Part shown: positions 3,137-20,398 of the stretch, piece by piece | Numbering within the stretch: the first letter of the stretch is position 1 | Layout: every line of letters begins with the position of its first letter | Assembly (NCBI GenBank): GCA_902601455.1 | Contig: CACKNC010000004.1 | Span: forward strand, 1-64,000 | DNA length: 64,000 bases | DNA from: an uncultured Alphaproteobacteria bacterium | Lineage (GTDB): Bacteria; Pseudomonadota; Alphaproteobacteria; HIMB59; GCA-002718135 | Direction: 5' to 3' | The notes under the pieces: model-generated | The model's input: only the letters and a program-made list of their open reading frames with translations | Databases searched by the model: none | What the model was told of the DNA's origin: nothing | Position numbers and translations under genes: made by a program

Positions 3137-4012
3137 ATGATAGATATCAACCCTAACAAACAAAATCAACAAACAATAAATGATATTATTTCAATAACAG
3201 GCATAGGTTTGCATTCAGGAAAACAAGTTAGTATGAAACTTGTCCCTTCTAAGGTTGATAGTGGAGTTAAATTCATTCGTTCTGATAAAAAAAATGATAA
3301 TATTATTGAAGCTATATGGTCAAATGTATCTGAAACCGTTTTAAGCACAACAATTTCAAATAAAAGTAAAATTAAGGTTTCTACAATAGAGCATTTAATG
3401 AGTGCTTTATCTGGTCTTCATGTTGATAATTTAACAATCTACATAAATGCTTCTGAAGTTCCGATTATGGACGGTAGTTCAAGGCCTTTCGTTGATTTAA
3501 TTGAAAAAGTAGGAATTAAAGTACAAGACAAAAAACGTAAATTACTTAATATTAAAAAAATTGTTGAAGTAAAAAGTGATAAAAGTTCTGTTAAAATTAT
3601 TCCTAACAATCAGTTTTCCATTGATTTTGAAATTGATTTTCCAAGTCAGTTAGTTTCTAGGCAGTCATGCCAATTGCAACTAATTAATGGTAACTATAAA
3701 ACTGATATAGCTGCAGCAAGAACTTTTGGATTTGAAAAAGATGTTGAAAATTTAAGATCCAATGGTTTAGCATTAGGAGGTTCATTAGAAAATGCAGTAG
3801 TAGTTGGAGAAAAACAAATCTTAAACAAGGATGGGCTTAGGTATACTGATGAATTTGTCAGGCACAAGATACTAGACTCTATTGGTGATCTCTATCTAGC
3901 TGGATCCCCTATTATTGGTTATTTTTATGGTAATAAATCTGGTCATCATCTTAATAACCAACTTCTAAGAAAGTTATTTTCTGATCAATCTAATTATGAA
4001 TATATAGTTTAG
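3137..4012 (+). CDS. lpxC: UDP-3-O-acyl-N-acetylglucosamine deacetylase LpxC
   Basis: Zinc amidase that deacetylates UDP-3-O-acyl-GlcNAc, the committed step of lipid A synthesis. It shows that this cell makes an LPS outer membrane. The zinc-binding HLMSALSGL motif (His near 86), the RHKILDSIGDLYLAG motif (His and Asp near 243 and 247) and the catalytic GHH (near 269-271) are all present. The 291-residue length is slightly short for the family but complete. The start lies only a few bases after the ftsZ terminator and lacks a clear ribosome site. Its 3' end overlaps the convergent fumC by four bases. Confidence 0.95.
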   Translation: MIDINPNKQNQQTINDIISITGIGLHSGKQVSMKLVPSKVDSGVKFIRSDKKNDNIIEAIWSNVSETVLSTTISNKSKIKVSTIEHLMSALSGLHVDNLTIYINASEVPIMDGSSRPFVDLIEKVGIKVQDKKRKLLNIKKIVEVKSDKSSVKIIPNNQFSIDFEIDFPSQLVSRQSCQLQLINGNYKTDIAAARTFGFEKDVENLRSNGLALGGSLENAVVVGEKQILNKDGLRYTDEFVRHKILDSIGDLYLAGSPIIGYFYGNKSGHHLNNQLLRKLFSDQSNYEYIV

Positions 4013-9094: not shown

Positions 9095-9164
9095 ATATTA
9101 ATAATTATATTGAATTTAGTATTGTATCAAAATATCGATACAAAGATATATATGTCTCAATTTA

Positions 9165-9362
9165 TGAGTGTGAAGTAAAGTGTTAAGTTAACAAAAATAA
9201 AAAACAAGAGTAAGCAAATGGAAATTATAAAAGTGGGGCGTTCTGTTTCCCAACACATCTTCCCCAAGTCGCAGTATACATATATTTTTAAAAATTGTGT
9301 GCAAAAAGTGTGTGCATTGATTTGTAGTTTTTGATGAATTTGCGACCTCAGAGTGTGTGCAA
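9165..9362 (+). repeat. Cassette junction 1 (core 9235-9246), left edge of the array
   Basis: Left of the core are a degenerate arm pair (GTGTGAAGTAAAGTG) and the conserved AACAAGAGTAAGCAAATGG spacer, as at other right ends, so a lost unit probably once lay further left. Right of the core is the long left-end block, with GTGTGCA repeats and the conserved TTGATGAATTTGCGACCTCA, ending with another GTGTGTGC near 9360. The 9095-9422 gap holds nothing else convincing. Confidence 0.75.
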
Positions 9363-9422
9363 TCTCGCAAAAAGGCATTTAAAAAACTAGAATTTTTCTT
9401 TTTTTTAGGTTATTTTTATTTG

Positions 9423-9917
9423 ATGAAAAATTGTCCTGATTGTGCAGAAGAAATACAAGATGAAGCAATTAAATGTAAACATTGTGGATCATATTTTAAT
9501 CAAAATGAAAAAGAAGAACAAAAAAATAAAATTGAAACAAGTATATATGTTCCTCAATCTTCTTTAAGTTTTACTGAAGCGATTAAAACTTGTTTTAATA
9601 AATATGCAAATTTTTCTGGAAGAGCAAGGCGATCAGAATATTGGTATTGGATTTTATTTGCCGTTTTAGTTGGAATTGTTGCTTCAATTTTAGATGTAAT
9701 AATTCTTAATAGTGTTTTTGCTGGAGGTCCATTATATTGGTTAACAGCAGCAGGACTTTTTATCCCTCATATTGCAGTAGCAACAAGAAGACTACATGAC
9801 ACTGAAAGATCTGGGTGGAGGCAATTATGGTCCTTAACTGGAATTGGCGCTTTTTTTATTTTATATTGGTTAATTATAGAAGGTAATAGTAATAAAAATT
9901 TTTATGATAATAATTAA
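9423..9917 (+). CDS. Zinc-ribbon plus DUF805 membrane protein
   Basis: A 164-residue protein. Residues 1-25 form a zinc ribbon with two CxxC pairs (CPDC and CKHC) and the shared core AEEIQDEAIKCKHCG. After a charged linker comes a DUF805-like membrane body with SGRARRSEYWYW near residue 61, about three membrane helices, and the ATRRLHDTERSGW loop. I start at ATG 9423, where the zinc ribbon begins and paralogues start; an upstream ATG at 9357 would add residues coded by the junction repeat. First gene of unit 1, three bases before the next gene. DUF805 function is unknown. Confidence 0.82.
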   Translation: MKNCPDCAEEIQDEAIKCKHCGSYFNQNEKEEQKNKIETSIYVPQSSLSFTEAIKTCFNKYANFSGRARRSEYWYWILFAVLVGIVASILDVIILNSVFAGGPLYWLTAAGLFIPHIAVATRRLHDTERSGWRQLWSLTGIGAFFILYWLIIEGNSNKNFYDNN

Positions 9918-9920
9918 TTA

Positions 9921-10271
9921 ATGAAAAACTGCCCTTATTGCGCTGAATTAATTAAAGATGAAGCAATTAAATGTAAACATTGTGGAGAAAATCTCAATAA
10001 TAATAGTAGCATTAATGAACTGCCACCTGAAGTAACTAAGAATTTAACTCTATTAAGATTAGAAAAAATTAAAAATCCTGAAAATTATGGAGGTTGGTCT
10101 AAGGGTCAATATTATCTTTATTTTTTTTTAGGACTTATAATTGGAATTTTAGGAGTAATTATAGGAATTGTAGGAATGACTAGTAAGAATGAAATTAAAA
10201 AACTTCAAGGGAGAGTGGTCTTCTTAATTGGTATTTTAGGAGTTTTTATTGGTATAGGTTTTTTAATTTAA
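9921..10271 (+). CDS. Zinc-ribbon two-helix membrane protein
   Basis: A 116-residue protein with an N-terminal double-CxxC zinc ribbon (CPYC, CKHC), a PPEV...KIKNPENYGGWS linker and two hydrophobic helices joined by a short basic loop (MTSKNEIKKLQGR). The body is clearly paralogous to the gene at 18206-18577, including PP(E/D)V, KIKN.ENYGGWS and the loop. It follows the DUF805 gene by three bases and is probably translated from the same message. Function unknown; a small membrane-anchored zinc-binding regulator or scaffold is only a guess. Confidence 0.78.
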   Translation: MKNCPYCAELIKDEAIKCKHCGENLNNNSSINELPPEVTKNLTLLRLEKIKNPENYGGWSKGQYYLYFFLGLIIGILGVIIGIVGMTSKNEIKKLQGRVVFLIGILGVFIGIGFLI

Positions 10272-10305
10272 TATAATGAACTATTGTATTTAAGTTTTTG
10301 ATTTT

Positions 10306-10821
10306 ATGAGTGATTATAAAAAATGTCTGTATTGTGCAGAAGAAATACTTCAAGCAGCAAATAAATGTAAACACTGTGGAGAATATATAATAAAGAAAGA
10401 AGAAAATAATAATAATTTTTCAAACTTAGATAATTCAAAAAACCAAGTCAAAAAAAATACATATGTTGTAGAAAAATCAAATGCTCTTAATAAATTTTTT
10501 ATTTTTATTGGAGTTATTGCTATTATTGTATTTTTTTATTCCATATTTATCTCTGATCAAAACTTTTCATCTTATAGTAGTATTTCGGATGCTAACTGTA
10601 ATGAAGTTGCAAAAGATTCTGTTGGAAATAAACTTAAAAATTTGTTTGGTGCTGAATTTGAAATTTTACAAGTTAAAAATTCTAAAGAGATATCTAGAAC
10701 AACAAATAAATTAGTATGTTTAGGAGATGTAATGTTAGATAATGGTATTGACGGTCAAAAGTTAAGAACAGAATTAACAACAAAAGATGGGCAGTTTTGG
10801 TATAAATGGTCAATTGAATAA
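10306..10821 (+). CDS. Zinc-ribbon membrane protein with C-terminal domain shared with 18596-19789
   Basis: A 171-residue protein. The zinc ribbon (CLYC, CKHC) occupies about residues 6-26, one membrane helix about 62-80, and a globular extracytoplasmic domain the last about 85 residues. That domain (CNEVAKDSVGNKLKNLFGAE, then FEILQVKNSKEISRTTNKL) is nearly the same as residues about 25-100 of the secreted protein at 18596, so one domain is presented on two different N-terminal modules. Third gene of unit 1. Function unknown. Confidence 0.78.
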   Translation: MSDYKKCLYCAEEILQAANKCKHCGEYIIKKEENNNNFSNLDNSKNQVKKNTYVVEKSNALNKFFIFIGVIAIIVFFYSIFISDQNFSSYSSISDANCNEVAKDSVGNKLKNLFGAEFEILQVKNSKEISRTTNKLVCLGDVMLDNGIDGQKLRTELTTKDGQFWYKWSIE

Positions 10822-10837
10822 ATTAAACTATTCTAGT

Positions 10838-11083
10838 TGATCTATCGCCTAGAATAAAACTTTAGAGTGTGTGCATTAGTGTGTGAAACTTAATTTTACA
10901 AAAACAAGAGAAAGCAAAGGGAATTTAAATAAATGGGGCGTTCTGTTACTCAACCCTAGTTAAATATGCGAGAGAAACCAACACTTTTCCAGAACGTTCG
11001 TGCAAAACTTCGTGCAGACTTTTTGACTTTTTGATGATTTCTTGACTTTGACCTTCGAGCAAATATACAAATAAGGAGATTTC
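10838..11083 (+). repeat. Cassette junction 2 (core 10935-10946) with conserved leader
   Basis: The right end of unit 1 (10838-10934) has the GATCTATCGCCTAGAAT block, then GTGTGTGCAttaGTGTGTG arms and an ACAAGAGAAAGCAAAGGG spacer. After the core, unit 2 begins with a different arm type (TTCGTGCAaaacTTCGTGCA). It ends with TATACAAATAAGGAGATTTC at 11064-11083, a leader also found at 13396. The 300-base gap between genes holds only these elements. Confidence 0.78.
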
Positions 11084-11122
11084 AAAGTATCATAATTGTC
11101 TTTGATGGGGTAAATTTAAATT

Positions 11123-11527
11123 ATGAAAAAATGTCCATTCTGTGCAGAAGAAATTCAAGATGCGGCAATTAGATGCCGTCATTGTAATCAAGATATCGAA
11201 AAAATAGAAAAAAAAGAACCTGATAAAATTTTAGAATATAGAGTTTCAACACCTTTGCAAAAGACACACAGTTTAGGAGTAGTTGCTTTTATCATTACTT
11301 TGATTGGATTATTTACTTCTTTTTTTATTCCATTCTTTTTTCAAATAGTTGGTATAATTTTAGGTCATATTGCTTTAGGTGATTACAATAGAAATGAAGA
11401 AAAATACTCAGGCAAAGGTTTAATAATTGCTAGTTTAATTATAAATTATATAATTCTTGGACTTGCAATATTGATTGTTTTTGTTCTTGGTGTTGGCATT
11501 GCTGCTTTTATTAGTTCATTGAGTTAA
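11123..11527 (+). CDS. Zinc-ribbon plus DUF4190-like membrane protein
   Basis: A 134-residue protein. The N-terminal zinc ribbon (CPFC, CRHC) again carries the AEEIQDAAIRC core. A charged linker leads to a DUF4190-like body with two long hydrophobic segments around IGHIALGDYNRNEEKYSGKG, a loop typical of that family. First gene of unit 2, behind the conserved leader at 11064-11083. DUF4190 proteins are uncharacterised membrane proteins that often follow a zinc ribbon, so the fusion itself is not unique. Confidence 0.8.
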   Translation: MKKCPFCAEEIQDAAIRCRHCNQDIEKIEKKEPDKILEYRVSTPLQKTHSLGVVAFIITLIGLFTSFFIPFFFQIVGIILGHIALGDYNRNEEKYSGKGLIIASLIINYIILGLAILIVFVLGVGIAAFISSLS

Positions 11528-11529
11528 TT

Positions 11530-11562
11530 ATGAAAACCCTTCTCACACTCTTCGTTTTGTAG
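11530..11562 (+). pseudogene. Cut-off signal-peptide module (10 codons)
   Basis: ATG at 11530 begins the same DNA as the repeated signal-peptide module of neighbouring genes and encodes MKTLLTLFVL, but stops in TAG at 11560-11562, where the sequence diverges. The convergent gene at 11566-12051 ends three bases later. It looks like a breakpoint: the mature half of a secreted-protein gene was lost or replaced by an oppositely oriented gene. Too short to be a useful protein. Confidence 0.7.
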
Positions 11563-11565
11563 TTT

Positions 11566-12051
11566 TTAATTTTCTTTTATACTTTTATTTAAAAATTTAA
11601 TAAAATCTTCAACATTTTCTGTGTTAGTAGTTTTTAATTCAATCTGAAGTTTTTGTTTTGATATGGTATTAATTTCAAATGTTAGTTTCCTTGATATAAA
11701 CCAAATTATAAAAAAAACTAAACCAATTAAACCTGAAATAATCAAAAGGGTATTTCTTTCTATATCAATTGGAACCCAATTATAAATTTGATTAAGAAAA
11801 ATAACGACTGGTAAAATTAATATAAATAAAACCGAATAAAGAAAATATTTTCTTTCCTGGAAAACTTCAATTCCATATGAGTCAATTCTATTTTGGGGAA
11901 ATATTTTTGTACCACTATTTCTTCCTTGAGCAATTTCTTTATAAACAAATTTATCAGTAGCACCAATTGTTACATTTGTTTTAGAGAACAAAGAACCAAA
12001 ACTTCCAGATACTTTTACTTTAATATCTTCATTATTAATTACATTGCTCAT
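11566..12051 (-). CDS. Unknown membrane protein with two helices
   Basis: A 161-residue protein. An N-terminal polar part of about 70 residues (SGSFGSLFSKTNVTIGATDK) precedes two membrane helices (about 73-90 and 98-118) and a cytoplasmic C-terminal tail. The arrangement resembles small bacterial PH-like or DUF-type membrane proteins, but I do not recognise a family. It is one of the few minus-strand genes of the array and ends right against the truncated signal-peptide module. Its ATG is at 12051. Confidence 0.6.
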   Translation of the reverse strand: MSNVINNEDIKVKVSGSFGSLFSKTNVTIGATDKFVYKEIAQGRNSGTKIFPQNRIDSYGIEVFQERKYFLYSVLFILILPVVIFLNQIYNWVPIDIERNTLLIISGLIGLVFFIIWFISRKLTFEINTISKQKLQIELKTTNTENVEDFIKFLNKSIKEN

Positions 12052-12110
12052 TTATTATATTTTCTATTATTATAATTTATAAAAACATTAACTAATTTTA
12101 ATGTCAATAT

Positions 12111-12233
12111 TCTCTTTGATTTATCACCTAGAACGAAACTTCAGACTGTATGCAAAACTGTATGCAACTAAATTTTATAAAAACAAGAGGAAGCAACGGA
12201 AATATATAAAAGTGGGGCGTTCTGTTGCCCGGT
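12111..12233 (+). repeat. Cassette junction 3 (core 12214-12225), closest to the tmRNA end
   Basis: The right end of unit 2 has a GATTTATCACCTAGAAC block, CTGTATGCAaaaCTGTATGCA arms and an ACAAGAGGAAGCAACGG spacer. The core and its extension, GGGGCGTTCTGTTGCCCGGT, match the tmRNA 3' end over 20 bases, the longest match in the array. No left-end arms follow; a minus-strand gene ends 10 bases further on. Confidence 0.78.
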
Positions 12234-12243
12234 AACCTACATA

Positions 12244-12540
12244 TTAATAACAACGAAATTTCTTTATTTGTTTTTTTGTATATCCATTCCAAAATGTAAT
12301 AGTGTAACCTTTTGAAACACCAAAATTTGATACACCTCCATTACATATCATATATCCCAATTCATCAAAATCATGACCAGCATTAGGATTTGACATAACA
12401 ATCCACAAAGAAATATCTTGCGCCCAAGAAGAATCTGCAATCCCAGGAATATCATTTAATGCCAAAATCATATCTTTTTTACCAGCACTAGCACTAAACG
12501 AAAAAAGAGTTAGAAATAATAATAATAATAATTTTTTCAT
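12244..12540 (-). CDS. Small secreted protein of unknown function (sole gene of a 371-base unit)
   Basis: A 98-residue protein with a signal peptide (MKKLLLLLFLTLFSFSASAG, cleavage likely after ASA at about residue 19). The mature part of about 79 residues has two cysteines (MICNGG and the near-terminal RC) that could form a disulfide, and an aromatic/glycine-rich C-terminal half. This signal peptide is not the repeated MKTLLTLFVL module. The gene nearly fills the smallest unit of the array and runs opposite to most cargo. No family recognised. Confidence 0.62.
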   Translation of the reverse strand: MKKLLLLLFLTLFSFSASAGKKDMILALNDIPGIADSSWAQDISLWIVMSNPNAGHDFDELGYMICNGGVSNFGVSKGYTITFWNGYTKKQIKKFRCY

Positions 12541-12584
12541 ACAATTAACTTAACACAATCAAAATTTTTTTAAAATAAATAAAT

Positions 12585-12670
12585 GGGGCGTTCTGTGTCT
12601 TGTCGCCCAAATATTCTTTATATCCACCTTAGAAAATAACTCAATATTAAAGTAAGTGTGTAGTAATTTG
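12585..12670 (+). repeat. Cassette junction 4 (core 12585-12596)
   Basis: Left of the core there are no clear arms. Right of it a distinct left-end type (GTCTTGTCGCCC, then TATTCTTTATATCCAC) is shared with junction 6, followed by an AAGTGTGTAGTAA arm at about 12654. The GTGTGTAGT type matches the right end of the same unit at 13175-13240. Confidence 0.75.
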
Positions 12671-12704
12671 TTGAGTTTATTATTATATAATTGTACACTA
12701 AATT

Positions 12705-13142
12705 ATGAAAATTATATTTTCTATCATATTTTTACTCATATCTTTTAATGTCAATGCAGGTCCTTATCAAGATAGATACACATCATGTATTTTAGAAAAC
12801 ACTTCCGAGAGAGATAAAATTATTTTAGTTAAGTGGTTATTTGTTTTATTGGCAGAGCATCCAAGTTTGAAATATGATTTTCCTACAACTGAGGATGATA
12901 AAATTTCTAATGATAGAGCAGTCGCAGATTATATTTCTTATGTCATGGGAGTAAAATGTTTAAATGAAACTAAAGAAGTTTTAAAATATGAGGGTGAAGA
13001 AGCATTCTTAAAAGCGTTCGAATTATTAGGAGAAGTGGCATTCATGCAACTTGTAGAAAATGATGATGTTGCTATAGGTTTTGAGAGATACATTGAATAC
13101 ATAGACCCTTCTCTTTTTGAAAAAATTGCCGATTTAAATTAG
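12705..13142 (+). CDS. Secreted protein of unknown function
   Basis: A 145-residue protein with a signal peptide (MKIIFSIIFLLISFNVNAG, cleavage likely after NA-G at 18-19), then an acidic, mainly helical mature part with two cysteines (SCILEN near 29, VKCLNE near 86). The only gene of unit 4, with arms of the GTGTGTAGT type on both sides. Its signal peptide is not the repeated MKTLL module. No family recognised; periplasmic location is the only supported claim. Confidence 0.65.
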   Translation: MKIIFSIIFLLISFNVNAGPYQDRYTSCILENTSERDKIILVKWLFVLLAEHPSLKYDFPTTEDDKISNDRAVADYISYVMGVKCLNETKEVLKYEGEEAFLKAFELLGEVAFMQLVENDDVAIGFERYIEYIDPSLFEKIADLN

Positions 13143-13174
13143 TTTATTAATTAAAATATCATTTTAACTAATCA

Positions 13175-13415
13175 GGTGTGTAGTGTGTAGTCGCATTTTC
13201 TCAAAATAAGAGTGTGTAGTAAAGTGTGTAGTGATTTGAAAATTAAAATGACAGAAATAAAAGGGAATTAATTCAAATGGGGCGTTCTGTTGCCCAACAC
13301 ATCTTCCCCAAGTCGCAGTATACATATGTTTTTTAAAAGTGTGTGCATTGATTTGTTGTTTTTGATGAATTTGTGACCTCAGAGTGTGTGCTACCTATAC
13401 AAATAGGGAGATTTC
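13175..13415 (+). repeat. Cassette junction 5 (core 13279-13290) with conserved leader
   Basis: The right end of unit 4 carries four GTGTGTAGT copies (13177-13235). After the core, the left-end block (CCCAACACATCTTCCCCAAG, TTGATGAATTTGTGACCTCA, GTGTGTGCA arms) is almost identical to junction 1. It ends with TATACAAATAGGGAGATTTC at 13396-13415. The 310-base gap between genes contains only this. An ACTATAATT stretch at about 13417 could be a -10 box for unit 5. Confidence 0.78.
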
Positions 13416-13453
13416 TGACTATAATTTTTCTGATTATTGGGATAAAATAAATT

Positions 13454-13732
13454 ATGAATGAATTAAGAGAAGTGATCATATCGTTATTAGGTTATGTTGT
13501 AATGATTTCATTTATTCTTACTACTCTCTTCATTGCATATACCGTAGGTCGTTTTGGTTATAATTATTTTATTGGTGGTATTATTGGTGTTCTTATTTCA
13601 ACACTTAGTCATGGAGTAATTTTTCTGGCAATTCAAAATAATGAATACTTAAAAGAAATTAGAGATACTAGAAAGATTGCAAAAATGAATAACGATCTAC
13701 TAAAAGAGATTAGGGATAATACAAAAAAGTAA
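13454..13732 (+). CDS. Small two-helix membrane protein with charged tail
   Basis: A 92-residue protein with two membrane helices (about 10-32 and 37-58) and a charged, coiled-coil-like C-terminal tail containing an imperfect repeat (LKEIRDTRKIAKMNND, then LLKEIRDNTKK). First gene of unit 5, directly behind the conserved leader at 13396-13415. The pattern of a small membrane anchor with a helical tail fits an oligomerising accessory protein, but no family is recognised. Confidence 0.6.
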   Translation: MNELREVIISLLGYVVMISFILTTLFIAYTVGRFGYNYFIGGIIGVLISTLSHGVIFLAIQNNEYLKEIRDTRKIAKMNNDLLKEIRDNTKK

Positions 13733-13761
13733 ATTGTTAAAATATCAAAAGATAATAAATA

Positions 13762-14214
13762 ATGAAAACACTTCTCACACTCTTCGTTTTGTTTTTTTCG
13801 TCTTCGGTGGTTGCGGAGGATAAAGTTTTACATTGTCTCGTTACCAAATATGTTGGTTTAACAAATTCAAATAATGAAATTCATGATTACTTTTCTCAAC
13901 TTGAAAATAATTTCTTTGTTTTATCAATCAATAAAAACAAAAAAACATTAACTTTTTCTGATAAATGGATAAATCAATTTGAGTATTATTCTATTTATTC
14001 TAAACCCTTTAAAATATTAAGTATTGATGAAATTTATCTTGATGAAAATTCTTCTGCAATAGATGAATTAAGTGATGAAAGCACAATAAGTGCAATAGAT
14101 AGTATTTGGAGAAACACAATTTTAATTTTAGATATTGATGAAGGTGAATTAAGAACAGTTGGTGTAAGGTTTGGTGACACTACAATGTTAGATGCAAATT
14201 GTGATACCATTTAA
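13762..14214 (+). CDS. Secreted protein with the shared MKTLLTLFVL signal-peptide module
   Basis: A 150-residue protein. Residues 1-18 (MKTLLTLFVLFFSSSVVA) are the repeated signal peptide, with cleavage likely after VVA. The mature part of about 130 residues has cysteines near each end (LHCLVTKY, DANCDTI), which may pair. Its sequence is unrelated to the mature parts of the other module carriers. Second gene of unit 5, 29 bases after the two-helix membrane protein. Function unknown. Confidence 0.66.
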   Translation: MKTLLTLFVLFFSSSVVAEDKVLHCLVTKYVGLTNSNNEIHDYFSQLENNFFVLSINKNKKTLTFSDKWINQFEYYSIYSKPFKILSIDEIYLDENSSAIDELSDESTISAIDSIWRNTILILDIDEGELRTVGVRFGDTTMLDANCDTI

Positions 14215-14247
14215 AGAACTAAAGAGTTTGATTAAAGATCACATTCA

Positions 14248-14459
14248 TTCTCTTTGATTCATCGCCTAGAATGAAACTTTAGAGTGTGTGCAAAGTGTGT
14301 GCAATAGTGTGTGCATCTTAAATTTACAAAAATAAGAGGAAGCAACGGGAAATTAAAATAATGGGGCGTTCTGTGTCTTGTCACCCATTTATTCTTTATA
14401 TCCACTAACGAAAATAAGTCAAAATCAAAGTAAGTGTGAAGTAAGTGTGAAGTAAATTG
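14248..14459 (+). repeat. Cassette junction 6 (core 14363-14374)
   Basis: The right end of unit 5 has TCTTTGATTCATCGCCTAGA, then three GTGTGTGCA arms (14284-14315) and an ATAAGAGGAAGCAACGGGAA spacer. After the core, the left end is of the GTCTTGTC type shared with junction 4, followed by two GTGTGAAGT arms at about 14433-14454. The 312-base gap between genes contains only this. Confidence 0.78.
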
Positions 14460-14527
14460 AAGATTTTAGGACAATTCAGTTTGAATTGATGCTTTAAGAT
14501 AAGGTTTTTCAATGTTAATTTAGTCTA

Positions 14528-14986
14528 ATGAATAAATTATCAATAGAAACAATAAATAAGATAAATGACGCCAAGGAAGAGGCAAGACAAACTGGATACT
14601 TTTGGATGATAGTAGTTCAGTTTCATATTGTAGGAACGCTAATGTTTTCTCCAGGGTTTTTGTCTGAAGATAAATACAATTTATTTGTTAATATTTTTAT
14701 TATTATTATTGAGTTGATATTTATCTATTTATCTTTTTTTAAATTTAGTCGACTTATAAGCGTAATCTCACCAATTATAATTTTATCGATGTTAGTTGTT
14801 AGTTATTTTTCAATTAAATTACCAATTGATTTCTATTTATCATCTTATTTAAATTTAATTGAAAAAAATGTAGGTAAAGTGACAATGTTTTTTTTTATAG
14901 TATTACCTTTCTTACCTATAATGTTTTTTTATAGAGGAATTAAAGGTTCATTTAAATATCATGAATTAATGAAGGAAAGTAATTAA
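14528..14986 (+). CDS. Four-helix membrane protein of unknown function
   Basis: A 152-residue protein. A charged N-terminus (KINDAKEEARQTG) is followed by about four hydrophobic helices, roughly 24-42, 50-68, 75-97 and 115-137, and a short polar tail. First gene of unit 6. Its stop directly abuts the ATG of the next gene (14987), so the pair is probably translated together. No family recognised. Confidence 0.58.
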   Translation: MNKLSIETINKINDAKEEARQTGYFWMIVVQFHIVGTLMFSPGFLSEDKYNLFVNIFIIIIELIFIYLSFFKFSRLISVISPIIILSMLVVSYFSIKLPIDFYLSSYLNLIEKNVGKVTMFFFIVLPFLPIMFFYRGIKGSFKYHELMKESN

Positions 14987-15382
14987 ATGAAAACCCTTCT
15001 CACATTCTTCGTTTTGTTGTTTTCATCTTCGGTGTTGGCAGAGGGAATTAATATTACCTGTTTTGCTGATTGGAATTATGATTCTAAAAAGAATGAAACA
15101 ACAACTATAGTAAACCGAGTTAGATTTACTGTAAAACAGGGTGAAAATATTAATGACAATTGGTATTATTTTGATGTCAATGACATGTGCAAAAAGTATA
15201 AAATGTCAGTTACTGATTTTTCATTAGAGGGTATGTGTGTAAAAGAAAAAGCAACTAAAAAAATAACATGGCAACTTCGTATAGACAGATATACTGGTGA
15301 GATGACAAATTTAGAGACAGTTAATGGTGAACAAAACAGACTATGGGGTGGTAGTTGTAAAAAAAATGAAAAGTTATTCTAA
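14987..15382 (+). CDS. Secreted protein with the shared signal-peptide module
   Basis: A 131-residue protein. The signal peptide MKTLLTFFVLLFSSSVLA is a one-residue variant of the repeated module, followed by a mature part of about 113 residues with four cysteines (ITCFADW, DMCKKY, GMCVKE, GSCKKN), plausibly two disulfides, and a beta-rich, polar composition. The mature part is unlike those of the other carriers. It starts immediately at the stop of the preceding gene, and the next module-bearing gene begins one base after its stop. Confidence 0.65.
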   Translation: MKTLLTFFVLLFSSSVLAEGINITCFADWNYDSKKNETTTIVNRVRFTVKQGENINDNWYYFDVNDMCKKYKMSVTDFSLEGMCVKEKATKKITWQLRIDRYTGEMTNLETVNGEQNRLWGGSCKKNEKLF

Positions 15383-15383
15383 A

Positions 15384-15614
15384 ATGAAAACCCTTCTCAC
15401 ACTCTTCGTTTTGTTGTTTTCATCTTCGGTGTTTGGAAAAGCAACTGACTTTGATATTTTTCATTTTTTAAAAGAAGGATATAAAATTATATCAGTAGCA
15501 GAATTTAATAAGGGTGTTTTGTATTCTCTCCAATATAAAGATAAACATCTTGTTAATTGTATTTATTATGTAACAGGAGAAAAAGCACAATGTTATATTG
15601 TTGAAAAAGAATAA
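15384..15614 (+). CDS. Short secreted protein with the shared signal-peptide module
   Basis: A 76-residue protein starting at ATG 15384, where the repeated module MKTLLTLFVLLFSSSVFG begins; an upstream in-frame ATG at 15324 lies inside the previous gene and would bury the signal peptide. The mature part is about 58 residues with two cysteines (VNCIYY, QCYIV). The gene follows its neighbour by one base and precedes the next by one base, giving three consecutive short genes that all begin with the same segment. Confidence 0.6.
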   Translation: MKTLLTLFVLLFSSSVFGKATDFDIFHFLKEGYKIISVAEFNKGVLYSLQYKDKHLVNCIYYVTGEKAQCYIVEKE

Positions 15615-15615
15615 T

Positions 15616-16041
15616 ATGAAAATCCTACTCACACTCTTCGTTTTCCTTACTTTAGTATTCCCAACGAATGTATTTTCTTATGATTCTACTGAACCAGTAT
15701 GGGATCAAGTTAAAACACTTAATTGTACACAAACAGTAGATAGTGAATGTATCGATCATTTTTGCATGGATAAAGATCGTCCTGATTACAAATTTGTTAT
15801 AGATTTTAATGAGGATCAGATAATTTTTCCACCAAACGATTTAGCAAGTGGCAGATCAACAACCATAATGCACAAGGAATATTTAAAAGGAGTTAGCATG
15901 AGTAGCACAATGTCAACATCAGAAGAAATATTAAATGTAATTTTAATTAATAATAAATGGAACTTTTTTAGAACTTCTGCTTTATATGCATTTGAACAAT
16001 CTTATGTTGTTTTTTCTTCAGGTCTTTGTGTTGAAGATTAA
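15616..16041 (+). CDS. Secreted protein with a diverged signal-peptide module
   Basis: A 141-residue protein starting at ATG 15616. MKILLTLFVFLTLVFPTNVFS keeps the repeated start at DNA level (CTCACACTCTTCGTTTT) and then diverges, showing where the shared block ends. The mature part has four cysteines (LNCTQT, SECIDHFCMD, GLCVED). An upstream in-frame start at 15598 lies within the previous gene and is unlikely. No family recognised. Confidence 0.62.
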   Translation: MKILLTLFVFLTLVFPTNVFSYDSTEPVWDQVKTLNCTQTVDSECIDHFCMDKDRPDYKFVIDFNEDQIIFPPNDLASGRSTTIMHKEYLKGVSMSSTMSTSEEILNVILINNKWNFFRTSALYAFEQSYVVFSSGLCVED

Positions 16042-16052
16042 ATAAAATCTAA

Positions 16053-17087
16053 ATGAAAACCCTTCTTACACTTTTCGTTTTGTTTTTTTCGTCTGCAGGG
16101 GTTACGGAAGTTACTTTACATCCCAAAGACTTTCTAAATGGATTCCCAATTTGTAGTTTTGAAAGTAGTCTTGGACAAATTTGTAAAGAAAATCCCAGTC
16201 TTCTATTTTCAGATTATAAAAATGATTCAACGATTGAAATCAAAGATGAAAAACTCCTAATTGAAACTGACAACTGGTACTATTCTTTTGAAATTATCAA
16301 TAGAAAAAAAAATGAAGTAATTGTTGAGTTTGTTGATGATGGAAAAATAGTTACTTATCTTTCAGTATCCCACTATAAAATTAATTTTGATAAGGATTCA
16401 AATGAATGGAAAATTACTGCTAAAAAAATTATCTCACCTGAAGAAGAAAAAACAGGAAAGTTTAGAGAATTTAAGGAATCAATAACTTTTAACAATGTAG
16501 ATTTGTTAGAGGAAGGTGAAGTAAATAAGGAAAGTTTAATTTCAGAATTAGATAATAAAGATACTGCTAAGAATACTGCATCTAAAGAGAATGATTCAAA
16601 TTCTTTTGTAATAAATTTTTCAAAAATAATTAAAATTATTTTAATTGAATCAACTTCATTTTGGTTGTTTGTTTGTATTGTGACTACACTTTCTATTGTA
16701 AGTATTTCATTTAAATTTAGTTTTAAGGAATTTATTAATAGAAGGTACTCACGCTTATTAATTTACTTTTTTCTTTTAAGTTTGTTTATATTTTCAGCAA
16801 ATACCTCTGAAAGTTATTTAATGACATATACTCTTTCAGCAATTGCTGCTTTTATCCATGATCCAGGATTAATTTTTATAGGTATTATTATTGGGTCTAT
16901 TTTTTATAAACATGTAATACTTTTACCTGCACTAATTTTAATTGGTTTTATTGCTGTAAATATAATTTCAAGTCTTACAGTAATTGATAGTTATAATACT
17001 CCCCTTTTAAATCTTATTAGAACAGTTGTTATTTTTTATACTGGATATTTAATAAGTTCTGTCAGACAATTAATATTTAATAAATAA
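16053..17087 (+). CDS. Membrane protein: signal-peptide module, soluble domain and C-terminal helix bundle
   Basis: A 344-residue protein. It begins with the repeated module (MKTLLTLFVLFFSSAGVTE), followed by a soluble region to about residue 185 with two early cysteines (PICSFES, QICKEN), a linker, and about five C-terminal membrane helices from about residue 197 to the end. The signal-peptide module here heads a large polytopic protein rather than a secreted one. It is the last plus-strand gene of unit 6 and converges on a small minus-strand operon. Function unknown. Confidence 0.6.
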   Translation: MKTLLTLFVLFFSSAGVTEVTLHPKDFLNGFPICSFESSLGQICKENPSLLFSDYKNDSTIEIKDEKLLIETDNWYYSFEIINRKKNEVIVEFVDDGKIVTYLSVSHYKINFDKDSNEWKITAKKIISPEEEKTGKFREFKESITFNNVDLLEEGEVNKESLISELDNKDTAKNTASKENDSNSFVINFSKIIKIILIESTSFWLFVCIVTTLSIVSISFKFSFKEFINRRYSRLLIYFFLLSLFIFSANTSESYLMTYTLSAIAAFIHDPGLIFIGIIIGSIFYKHVILLPALILIGFIAVNIISSLTVIDSYNTPLLNLIRTVVIFYTGYLISSVRQLIFNK

Positions 17088-17097
17088 AAAACCCCAC

Positions 17098-17229
17098 TCA
17101 CCTATAATTCCTTGCTAATTCGTTTCTCACTTTAGTTACTTCTGTCAGTAGTTCGTCTGCAATCACTATTCTTTTAATGGGATCTTTCTCTTGTTCTAAT
17201 CGTCTGATGATATCTTTGACTTTATTCAT
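17098..17229 (-). CDS. 43-aa helical protein overlapping the RHH gene
   Basis: ATG at 17229 overlaps the RHH stop (TAATG), and the frame runs to TGA at 17098-17100. The product begins MNKVKDIIRRLEQEKDPIKR and contains IVIADELLTEVTKVRNELAR. It is strongly helical and charged, and resembles the dimerising N-terminal part of small DNA-binding proteins found beside regulators in mobile elements. The overlap and codon quality support a real gene. It could be a partner of the RHH protein, such as a toxin-antitoxin or recombination accessory, but this is inference. Confidence 0.55.
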   Translation of the reverse strand: MNKVKDIIRRLEQEKDPIKRIVIADELLTEVTKVRNELARNYR

Positions 17230-17384
17230 TAGATACTTGCTTGAACGAACTTCTCTAAACTTTGATGAATGATACTAGAGATTATTCTTCCCTTTTTATC
17301 AGCACACTTCTTCACTTCTTCATAAAGTTTAGGATCAATAGTGTAAGTTCTTATTATTTTGTTTTCACTTGGTCTTAATTGCAT
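17229..17384 (-). CDS. Ribbon-helix-helix (Arc/CopG-type) DNA-binding protein
   Basis: A 51-residue protein from ATG 17384, preceded by AAAGGAA as ribosome site; an in-frame ATG at 17402 would add six residues. The sequence has a short beta strand (KIIRTYTIDPKL), helix 1 (YEEVKKCADKKG) and helix 2 after RIISSIIHQSLEKFV, the pattern of RHH repressors. It is the only recognisable DNA-binding protein in the array and sits near the right end of unit 6, a natural place for a copy-control, antitoxin or excision-control protein. Confidence 0.68.
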   Translation of the reverse strand: MQLRPSENKIIRTYTIDPKLYEEVKKCADKKGRIISSIIHQSLEKFVQASI

Positions 17385-17437
17385 GGTTTGGTTTCCTTTC
17401 ATAAGTTGTTACTTATATTTATTTAATCCACCTGTTC

Positions 17438-17671
17438 TTAATTGATGTTTCTAGTAGTTTTCGCTTCGCTCAAATTGATTACTTCGTAATCAAGGTCTTC
17501 TGGAGGATTATTAATACTGAAACTTTGAACTCTGGACATACCTCTTGCTACGACAGCAAGAGGTTTTTGTCTTACCGAAATCTGAAACTTCGTTACCCTA
17601 GACTTACATTCTGATTTACAACGACACTCGGTTTTGCGGTAATGCCTAATCAGTTCTCTATAAAAACGCAT
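17438..17671 (-). CDS. 77-aa basic Cys-containing protein, unknown
   Basis: The frame starts MRFYRELIRHYRKTECRCKS and includes a CRCKSEC cluster, then RVTKFQISVRQKPLAVVARG and a C-terminal PPEDLDYEVINLSEA. GC content is clearly higher than in its neighbours, which fits a foreign origin. It lies upstream of the RHH gene on the same strand. No good ribosome site is visible and no family is recognised, so it may be a real phage- or plasmid-derived gene or a remnant. Confidence 0.42.
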   Translation of the reverse strand: MRFYRELIRHYRKTECRCKSECKSRVTKFQISVRQKPLAVVARGMSRVQSFSINNPPEDLDYEVINLSEAKTTRNIN

Positions 17672-17900
17672 GACATTAAATCCAATGTAATAGATTTAAT
17701 GTTCATTGAATGATGACAGGAAGGTCAGAGCATTCACGATTATCACTTTCGTTCATAAAAATCCCACGACCTTTTTATCAGTCGTTTCGGTTGGTCTATA
17801 TTTGTCCCAATCAAACTTGATATGTTGCAGACTTTAATAACAAGGGAGGTCGTTAAATGCCTGCATTCAATTGTATCTTAATAATTATATATAAAATTAT
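17672..17900 (-). other. Chain of tiny overlapping frames, probably mobile-element remnant
   Basis: Upstream of the 77-aa gene on the minus strand are short frames linked by ATGA overlaps: one ending FDWDKYRPTETTDKKVVGFL, then a 17-codon frame (MNESDNRECSDLPVIIQ), then an 18-codon frame. The tight packing is phage- or plasmid-like, but each piece is too short to trust. Base composition is richer in GC than the array average. I treat the stretch as decayed element DNA. Confidence 0.3.
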
Positions 17901-17949
17901 TTATAAGAGTTTGGGTCTTGCGACACATTACAAATAAGAATTAAAGTTG

Positions 17950-18180
17950 GCGCAAAGTAGTGTCTGCAAAGTGTATGCAAAAGTGTCTGCATCTTAAATT
18001 TATAAAAATAAGAGGAAGCAAAGGGAAATTATAAAAATGGGGCGTTCTGTTTCCTTATCAGTCTGCCCTATGCATTGTATTATATACATTTTTTAAAAGT
18101 GTGTGCAAAAAGTGTGTGCACTAATTCGCACTTTTTGATGAATTTGCGACCTCAGAGTATGTGCAAACTATACGAATAAG
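17950..18180 (+). repeat. Cassette junction 7 (core 18039-18050)
   Basis: The right end of unit 6 has GTGTCTGCA, GTGTATGCA and GTGTCTGCA arms (17960-17992) and an ATAAGAGGAAGCAAAGGGAA spacer. After the core come GTGTGTGCAaaaaGTGTGTGCA arms and the TTGATGAATTTGCGACCTCA block shared with junctions 1 and 5. A diverged leader (TATACGAATAAG at 18169) follows, with TATGCTATAGT downstream as a possible -10 region. Confidence 0.78.
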
Positions 18181-18205
18181 AATTTATTTATGCTATAGTT
18201 TTCAA

Positions 18206-18577
18206 ATGAAAAAATGTCCTTACTGTGCAGAAGAAATACAAGATGAAGCAGTTAAGTGTAAGCACTGTGGTGAGTTTGTTAATGAAGAGGTTGCATCAAA
18301 TGACTATCAAAAACAAAACTCGTTGCCACCTGATGTCTTGGAAAATTTAGGATGGAAAAAAATCCATAAGATCAAAAATATAGAAAATTATGGAGGTTGG
18401 TCACAAAGAACTTTTAGCGTTTTTGCTATATTAAGTATTCTAATAGGAATTTTTGGTTTAATCATTGGAATAGTAGCAATGAATAGTGACAATATAGTTA
18501 AAAAGAAACAGGGAAATATTTTGCTAGTTGTAGGATTAATAAGTATGTTTGTAGGGGCAATGTCTTTGCTTACATAG
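18206..18577 (+). CDS. Zinc-ribbon two-helix membrane protein (paralogue of 9921-10271)
   Basis: A 123-residue protein. I start at ATG 18206, where MKKCPYCAEEIQDEAVKCKH begins; the upstream ATG at 18161 falls in the junction repeat. The zinc ribbon (two CxxC pairs) is followed by a PPDV...KIKNIENYGGWS linker and two membrane helices with a basic loop, matching the gene at 9921 throughout. So the same whole gene type occurs in units 1 and 7, at opposite ends of the array. Function unknown. Confidence 0.78.
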   Translation: MKKCPYCAEEIQDEAVKCKHCGEFVNEEVASNDYQKQNSLPPDVLENLGWKKIHKIKNIENYGGWSQRTFSVFAILSILIGIFGLIIGIVAMNSDNIVKKKQGNILLVVGLISMFVGAMSLLT

Positions 18578-18595
18578 GTTTAAAAAGAAACAATT

Positions 18596-19789
18596 ATGAA
18601 AACCCTTCTCACACTCTTCGTTTTATTTTTTTCTTCACAATCATTTGCTTTTTTATTTGGAATTACATCAGTTGAAAACGCAACATGTGAAGATGTTGAA
18701 AAAGAGGCAAAAGGACAAGTTCTTAAAAATCTTTTTGGTGCAGAGTTTACTATATTACAAGTAAAAAATTCTAAAGAATTATCTCGCACTAAAGACAAAC
18801 TAATATGTTTAGGAGATTTAAAATTAGATAATGGTGTGGAGTCAAAATTAAAAATGGAAGTATATGAAGAAGATGGTCAATTATGGTTTAAATACGAACA
18901 AGAAACAGGTTATTCAATAAATAACAATACAGTTGATGAAGAATATCTAGTATCACGTTCAACTTTAAAAGAAAAAATTTTAAATTGTAAAAATATACCA
19001 AACAACAATGATAGATTACTTTGTTTTGATGAAATGAGTGAAAACATTAAAACTGCCGATGCTATTATGATTCCGAATATAGAAAAATTATTTGCAGAAA
19101 ATACTTTACAGATTGGGTATCTTGGTAAACCTTTTTATGGTTGCTTGATAGATATTAAATATAATGAAGAACAAAGAGATGCTTTAACGGATGAGATAGT
19201 CGTGCCAGGTTCAATTTATGAAGTTTCAATTGGAGATGTTGAAAACTATTTATCAGCATACATTGAAGATTTTGCTTCTTTTTCTAAAAACGATAAGAAT
19301 GCCCCAAAGATTGGAGATTGTTTCGCGTTTATTCTTGATTACCCAATAACTGACCAATACATGTGGGGTTGGGCAAATGGTTGGGGAAAGATTTATCAAG
19401 GCAATGATTTTGTTGTTGATGAAGAAGTTAACAAAATTAAACCTCTTCTTGATGAGATAAGTGTTGAAAAATTTTTAAATGATAATGTTAGTTATGGTAC
19501 AAAAAAAATAAAACTTACTGGAATTGTTACAGCAATTAACACACGTAAAAATAATTTTATATCAGAACATTTTCAGTTGCAATTATCCTCACCAAGTCAT
19601 GAAAATAATAGTGTTAATTCATATATAGTGATCGCAGTTTATTATGCTGAAAAATGGCAAAACAACGACGTGATTAAAAATAGATTAAAATCAATTCAAA
19701 TAGGAGACACTATAACCGTTAGTGGATTTTTTAGTAAAGAACTCGGTGCAACTCACGGTTTTAACGTTATAGAAATCATTGATGATTAA
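18596..19789 (+). CDS. Large secreted protein: signal-peptide module, shared domain and C-terminal region
   Basis: A 397-residue protein. Residues 1-18 are the repeated module (MKTLLTLFVLFFSSQSFA). Residues about 27-100 repeat the globular domain of the gene at 10306 (NLFGAEFTILQVKNSKE). Next comes a cysteine motif, LNCKNIPNNNDRLLCFDEM, of a kind seen in several periplasmic protein families. The last about 270 residues are acidic, with a beta-rich end (KIKLTGIVTAINT, IQIGDTITVSGFF) that suggests an OB-like fold. Second gene of unit 7. Function unknown. Confidence 0.68.
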   Translation: MKTLLTLFVLFFSSQSFAFLFGITSVENATCEDVEKEAKGQVLKNLFGAEFTILQVKNSKELSRTKDKLICLGDLKLDNGVESKLKMEVYEEDGQLWFKYEQETGYSINNNTVDEEYLVSRSTLKEKILNCKNIPNNNDRLLCFDEMSENIKTADAIMIPNIEKLFAENTLQIGYLGKPFYGCLIDIKYNEEQRDALTDEIVVPGSIYEVSIGDVENYLSAYIEDFASFSKNDKNAPKIGDCFAFILDYPITDQYMWGWANGWGKIYQGNDFVVDEEVNKIKPLLDEISVEKFLNDNVSYGTKKIKLTGIVTAINTRKNNFISEHFQLQLSSPSHENNSVNSYIVIAVYYAEKWQNNDVIKNRLKSIQIGDTITVSGFFSKELGATHGFNVIEIIDD

Positions 19790-20037
19790 GTTAAGCATTA
19801 AATTAATTGAAAAATTAATTTAGAATAAAGAAATAATTGCCAGATTTAGATCTTATTTTCATTTTTTTATACAGATATTTTAAAAAAAAATAAAATTAGA
19901 AAGTCAAATTAGTTCATTCTTATTCTCTTTGATCTATCGCCTAGAATGAAACTTCAAAGTGTGTGCAAAGTGTGTGCAATAGTGTGTGCAGATTGTTTTT
20001 CAAAAAGTGAGAGGAAATAATAACTTTTTAATTAAAA
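19790..20037 (+). repeat. Right end of unit 7, arm repeats adjoining the tmRNA
   Basis: This gap contains AT-rich sequence, then TTCTCTTTGATCTATCGCCT and three GTGTGTGCA arms (19959-19990). A GAGAGGAAATAA spacer then runs into the tmRNA core at 20038. The arms match those at the left end of the same unit (18105-18120). Confidence 0.78.
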
Positions 20038-20288
20038 GGGGCGTTCTGTTGCCCGGTGCCCCAAACCGCGCTAGCCTAGAATCTAGGCAGCGATAGCTAA
20101 TCTATTATCGTTAGCGTTTATAAAAATAACCCGATAACGGTGGTATAATGCCGAGCAAAGTCTTTATCTTTTAGTCAACGTCAAACCTATTTCGCCCCCA
20201 TATTTTTATGGTGGAGGCGCCGGGTACCGCCCCCGGGTCCGCACAACCTATTACATAAAGCATTTATCGCTATAGTTGATAAATCAAC
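20038..20288 (-). ncRNA. ssrA: Circularly permuted two-piece tmRNA
   Basis: tmRNA rescues stalled ribosomes, acting first as tRNA-Ala and then as a short message. Reading the minus strand, the acceptor piece comes first and ends CGCCTCCACCA with an encoded CCA (20209-20211). After a nine-base intervening segment (20200-20208), the coding piece begins at 20199 with GGGGGCG. GGGGGCG pairs with CGCCTCC over seven base pairs, including the G3-U pair that marks alanine acceptors. The coding piece holds the tag frame and a perfect GCCTAGA/TCTAGGC hairpin at the stop. Its 3' end GGGGC...GCCCC-TTTT serves as terminator and attachment site. A possible -10 (TATAAA, 20295-20300) lies upstream. Confidence 0.95.
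20083..20115 (-). other. tmRNA tag reading frame
   Basis: GCT AAC GAT AAT AGA TTA GCT ATC GCT GCC TAG encodes ANDNRLAIAA. With the alanine carried on the tmRNA, the full degradation tag would be AANDNRLAIAA. The AANDN start is the part contacted by SspB, and the hydrophobic AIAA end is what ClpX recognises. The tag is short for an alphaproteobacterium (Caulobacter uses AANDNFAEEFAVAA). Confidence 0.93.
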
Positions 20289-20398
20289 AATCCTTTTATA
20301 AACCAAAGTTAACAATCTAGAAAGTTTTGAATTATTAAATATAAATTTGTCTAAAAACCTGTTGTTTACATAAGGTTTTAGTGAAATAAGATTTTTTG
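20289..20398. promoter_or_regulatory. Divergent promoter region for tmRNA and folA
   Basis: This spacer separates the minus-strand tmRNA from the plus-strand folA. On the minus strand TATAAA at 20295-20300 is well placed for a start near 20288, where a small GTTGA/TCAAC hairpin begins the transcript. No clear -35 box is seen. Nothing distinctive marks the folA promoter. Confidence 0.4.

Follow-up and report, generated by a model that had tools for sequence, protein, structure and literature searches.

Locus structure and the tmRNA-end units

The stretch of DNA analysed here, 64,000 nucleotides long and called the window below, carries a permuted (two-piece) alphaproteobacterial tmRNA gene, and leftwards from its 3' end the last bases of the tmRNA, the core GGGGCGTTCTGT, are repeated in a row of eight copies (at 9235, 10935, 12214, 12585, 13279, 14363, 18039 and 20038) that bound seven units, each between 0.4 and 3.7 kb long. 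Such a number of core sites is far beyond chance (mean of 0.00 expected from 100 shuffles). The largest of the seven units, from 14363 to 18039, measures 3.7 kb and has a core at both borders; at its right, tmRNA-side end, just inside the core and a set of arm-type repeats, a pair of small overlapping genes reads inward from a non-coding leader (Table 1). Rows of cores are common in related genomes, here from single cells that carry the labels uncultured Alphaproteobacteria and Pelagibacteraceae: at least two exact cores were present in 26 of the 44 tmRNA loci fetched, some of these loci being cut by contig ends. Neither a core nor a tRNA was found when both were looked for in a further stretch of the window's own genome (L126).

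Table 1. Features of the largest unit, its target gene and the homologous genes in L161 (positions in the window unless L161 is named)
Feature	Position	Strand	Basis
Left att core of the unit (copy of tmRNA 3' end)	14363..14377	+	core search
Left arm-type repeats, AGTGTGAAGT, of a different type from those at the right	14432..14455	+	repeat search
Unit cargo, small membrane or secreted proteins	14528..17087	+	ORFs; strand opposite to the gene pair
43-aa helical partner protein	17098..17229	-	ORF and homologues; start overlaps ribbon-helix-helix stop (TAATG)
51-aa Arc/CopG-like ribbon-helix-helix protein	17229..17384	-	PHROG profile and homologues
Conserved non-coding leader between repeats and ribbon-helix-helix gene	17431..17958	-	blastn to L161; covers 17438-17671
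Strong leader hairpin, GACA...CCTCTTGCT...AGCAAGAGG..TGTC	17535..17571	-	folding z-score
Three right arm-type direct repeats of about 11 bp, AGTGTCTGCAA type	17959..17993	+	repeat search
Right att core of the unit (copy of tmRNA 3' end)	18039..18053	+	core search
Permuted alphaproteobacterial tmRNA gene, integration target	20035..20327	-	Rfam alpha_tmRNA E 3.9e-66; ARAGORN
L161 43-aa homologue	9445-9576		
L161 ribbon-helix-helix gene	9953-10123		PHROG Arc-like E 5.5e-10

The ribbon-helix-helix gene and its small partner

An earlier note on this DNA had described a 43-aa frame and a ribbon-helix-helix (RHH) frame overlapping as TAATG in the largest unit and near its end, and this arrangement was confirmed on the minus strand, at the right end of the largest of the seven. 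The RHH gene was read from the ATG at 17384, which has an AGGA 9 nt upstream and gives 51 aa (an alternative ATG at 17402 would give 57 aa), to a stop at 17229-17231. Its proposed identity was borne out by matches to the PHROG profiles of Arc-like repressors (PHROG 582, E 8.6e-5; PHROG 3180, E 3.5e-4); all Pfam families were below cut-off, NCBIfam gave none, and the best PDB sequence match, to CopG (1b01), was weak (E 0.18). The AlphaFold2 monomer model was poor (mean pLDDT 61.5), with helices at 18-30 and 37-50 and no strand, and Foldseek searches with it returned helical-pair matches only, nothing of meaning.

RHH homologues from L160, L161, L002 and L004 could be aligned, and none of 1000 shuffles scored as high as the RHH proteins of the window and L044 do against each other. 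The genes of the window and L161 differ at 21, 19 and 35 sites of codon positions 1, 2 and 3, and this excess at the third position is, on the aligned codons, the pattern of selection on coding. Because an ATG-initiated frame of at least 51 aa was also present in 44 of 300 shuffles, the case for the RHH gene rests on homology and not on the length of its frame.

The 43-aa protein is a short, charged, helical peptide that matched no family in Pfam, NCBIfam, PHROGs or PADLOC, and the profile search that the earlier note had recommended for both small proteins thus placed the RHH protein in PHROG and left its partner with homologues in two elements only. These are of 42 aa in L160 and 43 aa in L161, with 29-30% identity in a three-way alignment, and 0 of 1000 shuffles reached the score of the 43-aa protein against the 42-aa protein of L044. 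Its codon-position differences (22/14/24) have only a slight bias. We presume a likeness to the N-terminal helix pair of some helix-turn-helix regulators, the support being sub-threshold matches to Sigma70_r3 (E 0.13) and HrcA (E 0.19). On these sequence comparisons we take the RHH and 43-aa genes to be real.

A conserved leader in place of an upstream gene

The leader region was found to be 61% identical to that of L161 over 659 columns (about 660 nt; blastn E 3e-29), an alignment of 113 bits compared with a maximum of 28.3 among 100 shuffles. Its hairpin is strong both in the window (z -4.97) and in L161 (z -4.81) and is absent in L160; read on the plus strand, it is intrinsic-terminator-like. 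Over this conserved leader lies a 77-aa Cys-containing frame (17438-17671), which the earlier note had offered as the upstream gene of the operon, and this claim fell. The length of the frame is mildly unusual (7 of 300 shuffles), but it was rejected as a protein gene because no homologue was found with the Pfam, PHROG and NCBIfam profiles or in phage records and IMG/VR, because its differences from L161 (2/7/4 at codon positions 1, 2 and 3 of 21 aligned codons) are not codon-like, and because L161 has no equivalent full-length open frame. A decayed copy of the 147-aa gene of L044 was likewise rejected as its origin, with 239 of 1000 shuffles scoring as well, and 16 of 100 when frameshifts were allowed. 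The end stretch of the frame, which begins with MSR (window) or MSK (L161) and carries 6/6/11 differences, could encode a short peptide.

The possibility that the leader is widespread was dismissed after a scan of 162 genomes of the order, in which the one strong match was the window itself (E 8.7e-13) and the other matches were short and AT-rich, with E values of 1e-5 or worse. When the window DNA was compared with 102 genomes of the genus, two matched, namely its own genome and G160, where 9099-9215 of L088 resembles the 5' part of the window leader (75%, E 4e-11) at 1.6 kb from a tmRNA that has only one core; this stretch is a probable remnant of a lost element.

Arm repeats, cargo and the missing integrase

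The repeats found in the same place in L044/L160 and in L161 have another sequence than those of the window. The commonest type in the array, GTGTGTGCA, occurs 12 times there and 0 times in the other 43.7 kb scanned, including in units that have no RHH gene, and at least ten types flank the same tmRNA core when the eight cores of the window are considered together with L047, L057, L062 and L157 (examples besides GTGTGTGCA are CTCTATGCT, GTGTGTAGT, GTGTGAAGT, GACGCGTA and AAACGGCAC). So many repeat types on one core suggest that many integrase specificities share one target. As the repeats are present at both ends of elements, beside the core and the integrase of L186 (described below), and in RHH-less units, we infer that they are candidate integrase sites.

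A tblastn search of positions 9000-20100 with four tyrosine integrases (one of them as two halves) and two resolvases gave no integrase or resolvase (best E 0.05), and matches to PF00589 in the window's own genome were on other contigs only. As neither enzyme was found in it, the unit would depend for any movement on an integrase acting in trans, and it is probably a fusion of two elements, because its two ends carry different repeats as compared with a single type in the element of AG-915-O08 (see below); as a whole it looks composite and non-autonomous. The earlier note had called the pair the only regulator-like genes in the array; profile scans within the array took in seven proteins, and the one cargo protein profiled, of 344 aa, had no confident Pfam family.

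These unlike ends, and the integrase not found between them, would fit a pair that is a decayed or chance leftover with no function in the window genome, as would the decay of other elements at the tmRNA site: in L157 (G076) a tyrosine integrase split into two frames at 10495-11510 starts 98 bp from the tmRNA core and is, to judge from this position, part of a decaying tmRNA element. We nevertheless consider such a leftover very unlikely, as the two frames of the pair are unbroken, a ribosome-binding site precedes the RHH gene, the start and stop overlap tightly, and the substitutions between the RHH genes of the window and L161 are mostly at third positions.

Apart from the gene pair, the cargo proteins of the array have modular starts. 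A 41-nt stretch occurs seven times (11518-11558, 13750-13790, 14975-15015, 15372-15412, 15604-15644, 16041-16081 and 18584-18624), and six of the seven copies open frames with a signal-peptide-like MK-[T/I]-LLT-[L/F]-FV that is followed by unrelated proteins; these gene starts are conserved or exchanged while the rest of the gene differs. Zinc-ribbon N-termini (CPYCAEEIQDEA.KCKHCG) occur five times (9401-9506, 9899-10004, 10293-10398, 11101-11206 and 18184-18289), each time fused to a membrane domain that differs from copy to copy (DUF805 in one case), and are modular like the signal-peptide starts.

Relatives of the pair adjoin tmRNA and tRNA genes

Two further single-cell genomes, AG-915-O08 (L161) and AG-337-D08 (L044/L160), carry the pair as well, again at the tmRNA end. 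AG-915-O08 is an uncultured Pelagibacteraceae, in which the tmRNA (8622-8932 of L161) is followed by three repeats of type ACTAAGAACT and then by the leader and the 43-aa, 83-aa and RHH genes. Its continuation, L186, encodes a serine resolvase (Pfam E 1.1e-27) and, at the opposite end from the RHH/43-aa module, a 400-aa tyrosine integrase (PHROG_1, E 5.8e-9) that PF00589 does not detect. The cores GGCAACAGAACGCCCC and GGAAACAGAACGCCCC are 14,772 bp apart, giving an element of 14.8 kb with CTAAGAAC repeats at both ends, and the cargo at 11344-18770 of L161 includes a type II restriction endonuclease (E 3.5e-60), a type II methyltransferase (E 3.2e-133), a D12-class methyltransferase and a 1120-aa helicase/RNase H-like protein with a Cas4-like part. 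With two cores, an integrase and an intact target gene, L161/L186 is apparently a complete tmRNA-integrated element, the module and the integrase lying at its opposite ends.

This layout bears on whether the RHH protein is an excision (recombination directionality) factor, which would bind the arm repeats or core-adjacent DNA and turn the tyrosine integrase to excision. In favour of such a role, the core and the 11-bp repeats are within a few hundred bp of the RHH gene, which in L161 lies across the element from the integrase; the repeats, however, are also found in RHH-less units (the 12 copies of GTGTGTGCA in the array), their sequences differ between elements with related RHH proteins, and the term ribbon-helix-helix does not appear in the available portions of the literature on directionality factors that was searched. 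We regard this role as unlikely, if the least so of the alternatives to a control operon.

The L161 gene order also speaks to a toxin-antitoxin pair, made up of an RHH antitoxin and a 43-aa toxin. RHH antitoxins are common, and two small overlapping genes would be in keeping with such a system. Some RHH antitoxins, moreover, have a second role in the control of plasmid copy number, as does PrpA, the DNA-binding antitoxin of the PrpT/PrpA operon of a Pseudoalteromonas conjugative plasmid, which from the part of its description available resembles the pair as a small two-gene operon on an element (PMC7848731). The window pair differs from PrpT/PrpA, as far as that same part describes it, in having no recognisable toxin: the 43-aa protein is a short charged helical peptide with no match among the toxin families of Pfam, NCBIfam, PHROGs and PADLOC, and in L161 the 83-aa gene separates it from the RHH gene. 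We give this explanation very little weight.

In AG-337-D08, L044 (G040, linked to this cell through L160) was matched by the window at 60% over 344 nt (E 1.8e-7; blastn against the tmRNA regions of related genomes) and carries, on the minus strand beside a tmRNA core at 3753, genes for proteins of 147 aa, 53 aa (an RHH protein, PHROG 3180 Arc-like, E 1e-10), 42 aa and 98 aa, with a serine recombinase (serine resolvase) further inside the element. The gene set at 9092-11644 of L123 (G151) may be a cousin of the module with a different target; it is located at a tRNA-Leu gene that has a tyrosine integrase on its 5' side and comprises a serine resolvase and genes of 38 aa, 202 aa, 174 aa and 62 aa, the last RHH-like. 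The 147-aa protein also gave matches in G169 and G062, and no such element was found on the G169 contig.

From these loci a plasmid-type copy-control operon could be envisaged, in which the RHH protein would control a small replication protein (of 147 aa in L044, of 202 aa in L123) and the hairpin would be an origin or a regulatory RNA. The 147-aa gene is directly upstream of the RHH gene, its product resembles the 202-aa protein of L123, an element elsewhere in the genus (1 of 1000 shuffles), a His-x-His stretch is, we presume, reminiscent of HUH Rep proteins, and both elements carry a serine resolvase, like L161/L186. Set against this, neither protein matches a replication family in Pfam or PHROG, the AlphaFold2 model of the 202-aa protein was useless (pLDDT 41) and too poor for a structure search, the window and L161 operons are without such a replication gene, and the 77-aa frame resembles the 147-aa protein no more than chance allows, on the shuffles given above. 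This makes copy control of the plasmid type a distinctly unlikely explanation.

When the RHH alignment was used to scan a contig collection of 84,980 species, which may leave out records near the window, 351 stretches matched the pattern and five loci were obtained, in AG-337-D08, AG-915-O08 and three AG-457 cells. The earlier note had allowed that homologues might always be housekeeping regulators unrelated to mobile DNA; what was found is that all five adjoin a tmRNA or tRNA site (two at tmRNA, two near tRNA-Gly, one at tRNA-Leu). The two tRNA-Gly relatives are near-identical copies, and in L163 copies of a 27-nt repeat lie on either side of the RHH gene, the third of them overlapping the tRNA-Gly gene. 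At the tRNA-Leu locus both the RHH gene and a tyrosine integrase lie between two tRNA-Leu copies 9,546 bp apart. The pair in company with an integrase, which that note had also recommended looking for, is seen in L161/L186. Gene order varies: RHH-43 aa in the window, 147-RHH-42-98 aa in L044 and 43-83-RHH in L161.

An RHH profile run on 162 genomes of the order recovered five full-length genes only, all of which either belong to the profile's own rows or are identical copies of such a row, together with five short weak matches. These last, an apparent degraded RHH gene in G020 and matches in G089, G127, G140 and G035, span 25-31 positions only and were not counted as evidence. A phage origin of the pair was rejected, as neither 50,697 phage records nor the IMG/VR scans gave a relevant match; one further search gave only generic serine recombinases.

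Together these loci support the assignment of the RHH/43-aa pair to mobile DNA. The earlier note had seen in it the remaining control part of an element family, of which the link to mobile DNA stands; the phrase as a whole says too much, as only one of the seven units carries the pair.

A proposed early control operon at the end of a mobile element

The reading to which we lean, with a little more confidence than doubt, is that the pair serves a tmRNA-integrating mobile element as its early control operon, with the RHH protein as an Arc/CopG-like autorepressor. Placement at the element end is observed directly, and the regulatory role we infer from it; position, strand and repeated association with att ends favour a control operon. 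Arc and CopG are established repressor families, and the window protein is like them in its profile matches (PHROG 582 and 3180; CopG 1b01), its size and its small operon near replication or mobility genes, whereas its scores are weak (as in the best PDB match).

In the proposed mechanism, the RHH protein would repress its own leader promoter and keep the operon low, and hence the early genes of the element. The 43-aa helical protein would be its partner, translationally coupled to it in the window, and the two would jointly restrain early genes for maintenance, replication or excision, with the variable neighbours (147 aa, 83 aa and 98 aa) as the controlled functions. In the window the operon would sit on a composite unit, mobile only when an integrase is supplied in trans.

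Counting for a control operon are the PHROG profiles, the conserved leader with its hairpin, the codon pattern of the RHH gene, the complete element of AG-915-O08 and the five of five site-adjoining relatives; counting against it are the variable gene order, the lack of the hairpin in L160, the poor structure model and the CopG score. Independent cases are few (three tmRNA elements and those at tRNA-Gly and tRNA-Leu), and no operator was found for the RHH protein.

A broader proposal, which we put forward as speculative and rather improbable in its entirety, is that a hitherto undescribed end module, made up of a leader (RNA or DNA) with a conserved hairpin, the 43-aa helical protein and the RHH repressor, marks out one family of tmRNA-integrating elements in marine alphaproteobacterial lineages whose tmRNA tags differ. 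In shrinking, row-forming units it would be this module that persists and not the integrase, so that units without an integrase would stay controlled and be mobilised in trans by a visiting integrase of the matching arm-repeat type.

Relation to known elements and significance

Genomic islands that tyrosine integrases have placed at tmRNA genes are reported in the consulted part of the Islander/TIGER set (PMC4383910). The elements described here are like these in having tmRNA 3'-end cores at both borders and, in the apparently complete relative L161/L186, a tyrosine integrase; the window unit departs from that part of the set in that no integrase was found in it, in its 3.7 kb, in its place in a row of seven and in its permuted two-piece tmRNA target. 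In 'Ca. Methylopumilus', the last 20 bp of tRNA-Lys are repeated (PMC10872708, in the excerpt used), and a row of units separated by copies of an RNA-gene end in a streamlined aquatic bacterium is common to both cases; the target gene and taxon are other ones, and arm repeats, a leader and an RHH operon are absent from that excerpt. Tycheposons, as the same excerpt defines them, have a tRNA at the border, a tyrosine recombinase and 4-200 kb of cargo (PMC10872708). They share with the present elements their location, as cargo elements at RNA genes of marine bacteria, and the tyrosine recombinase of complete members (PMC10872708 and PMC11389934, in the parts available), whereas the window unit is at a tmRNA, has no recombinase that was found and is 3.7 kb long, and we do not class it as a tycheposon on the definition excerpted.

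No description of a module of leader, RHH gene and 43-aa gene was recognised in the literature searched. To our knowledge, few mobile elements are recognised in streamlined ocean bacteria, and their islands are usually read as lists of cargo. Here an anonymous operon of small genes is tied to a defined element end, with a core, arm repeats, a leader, an RHH gene and a 43-aa protein, and an apparently complete relative that has both an integrase and a resolvase can now be named. The end module may thus serve as a sequence signature for recognising integrase-less copies, and the control and movement of such units becomes a testable question.
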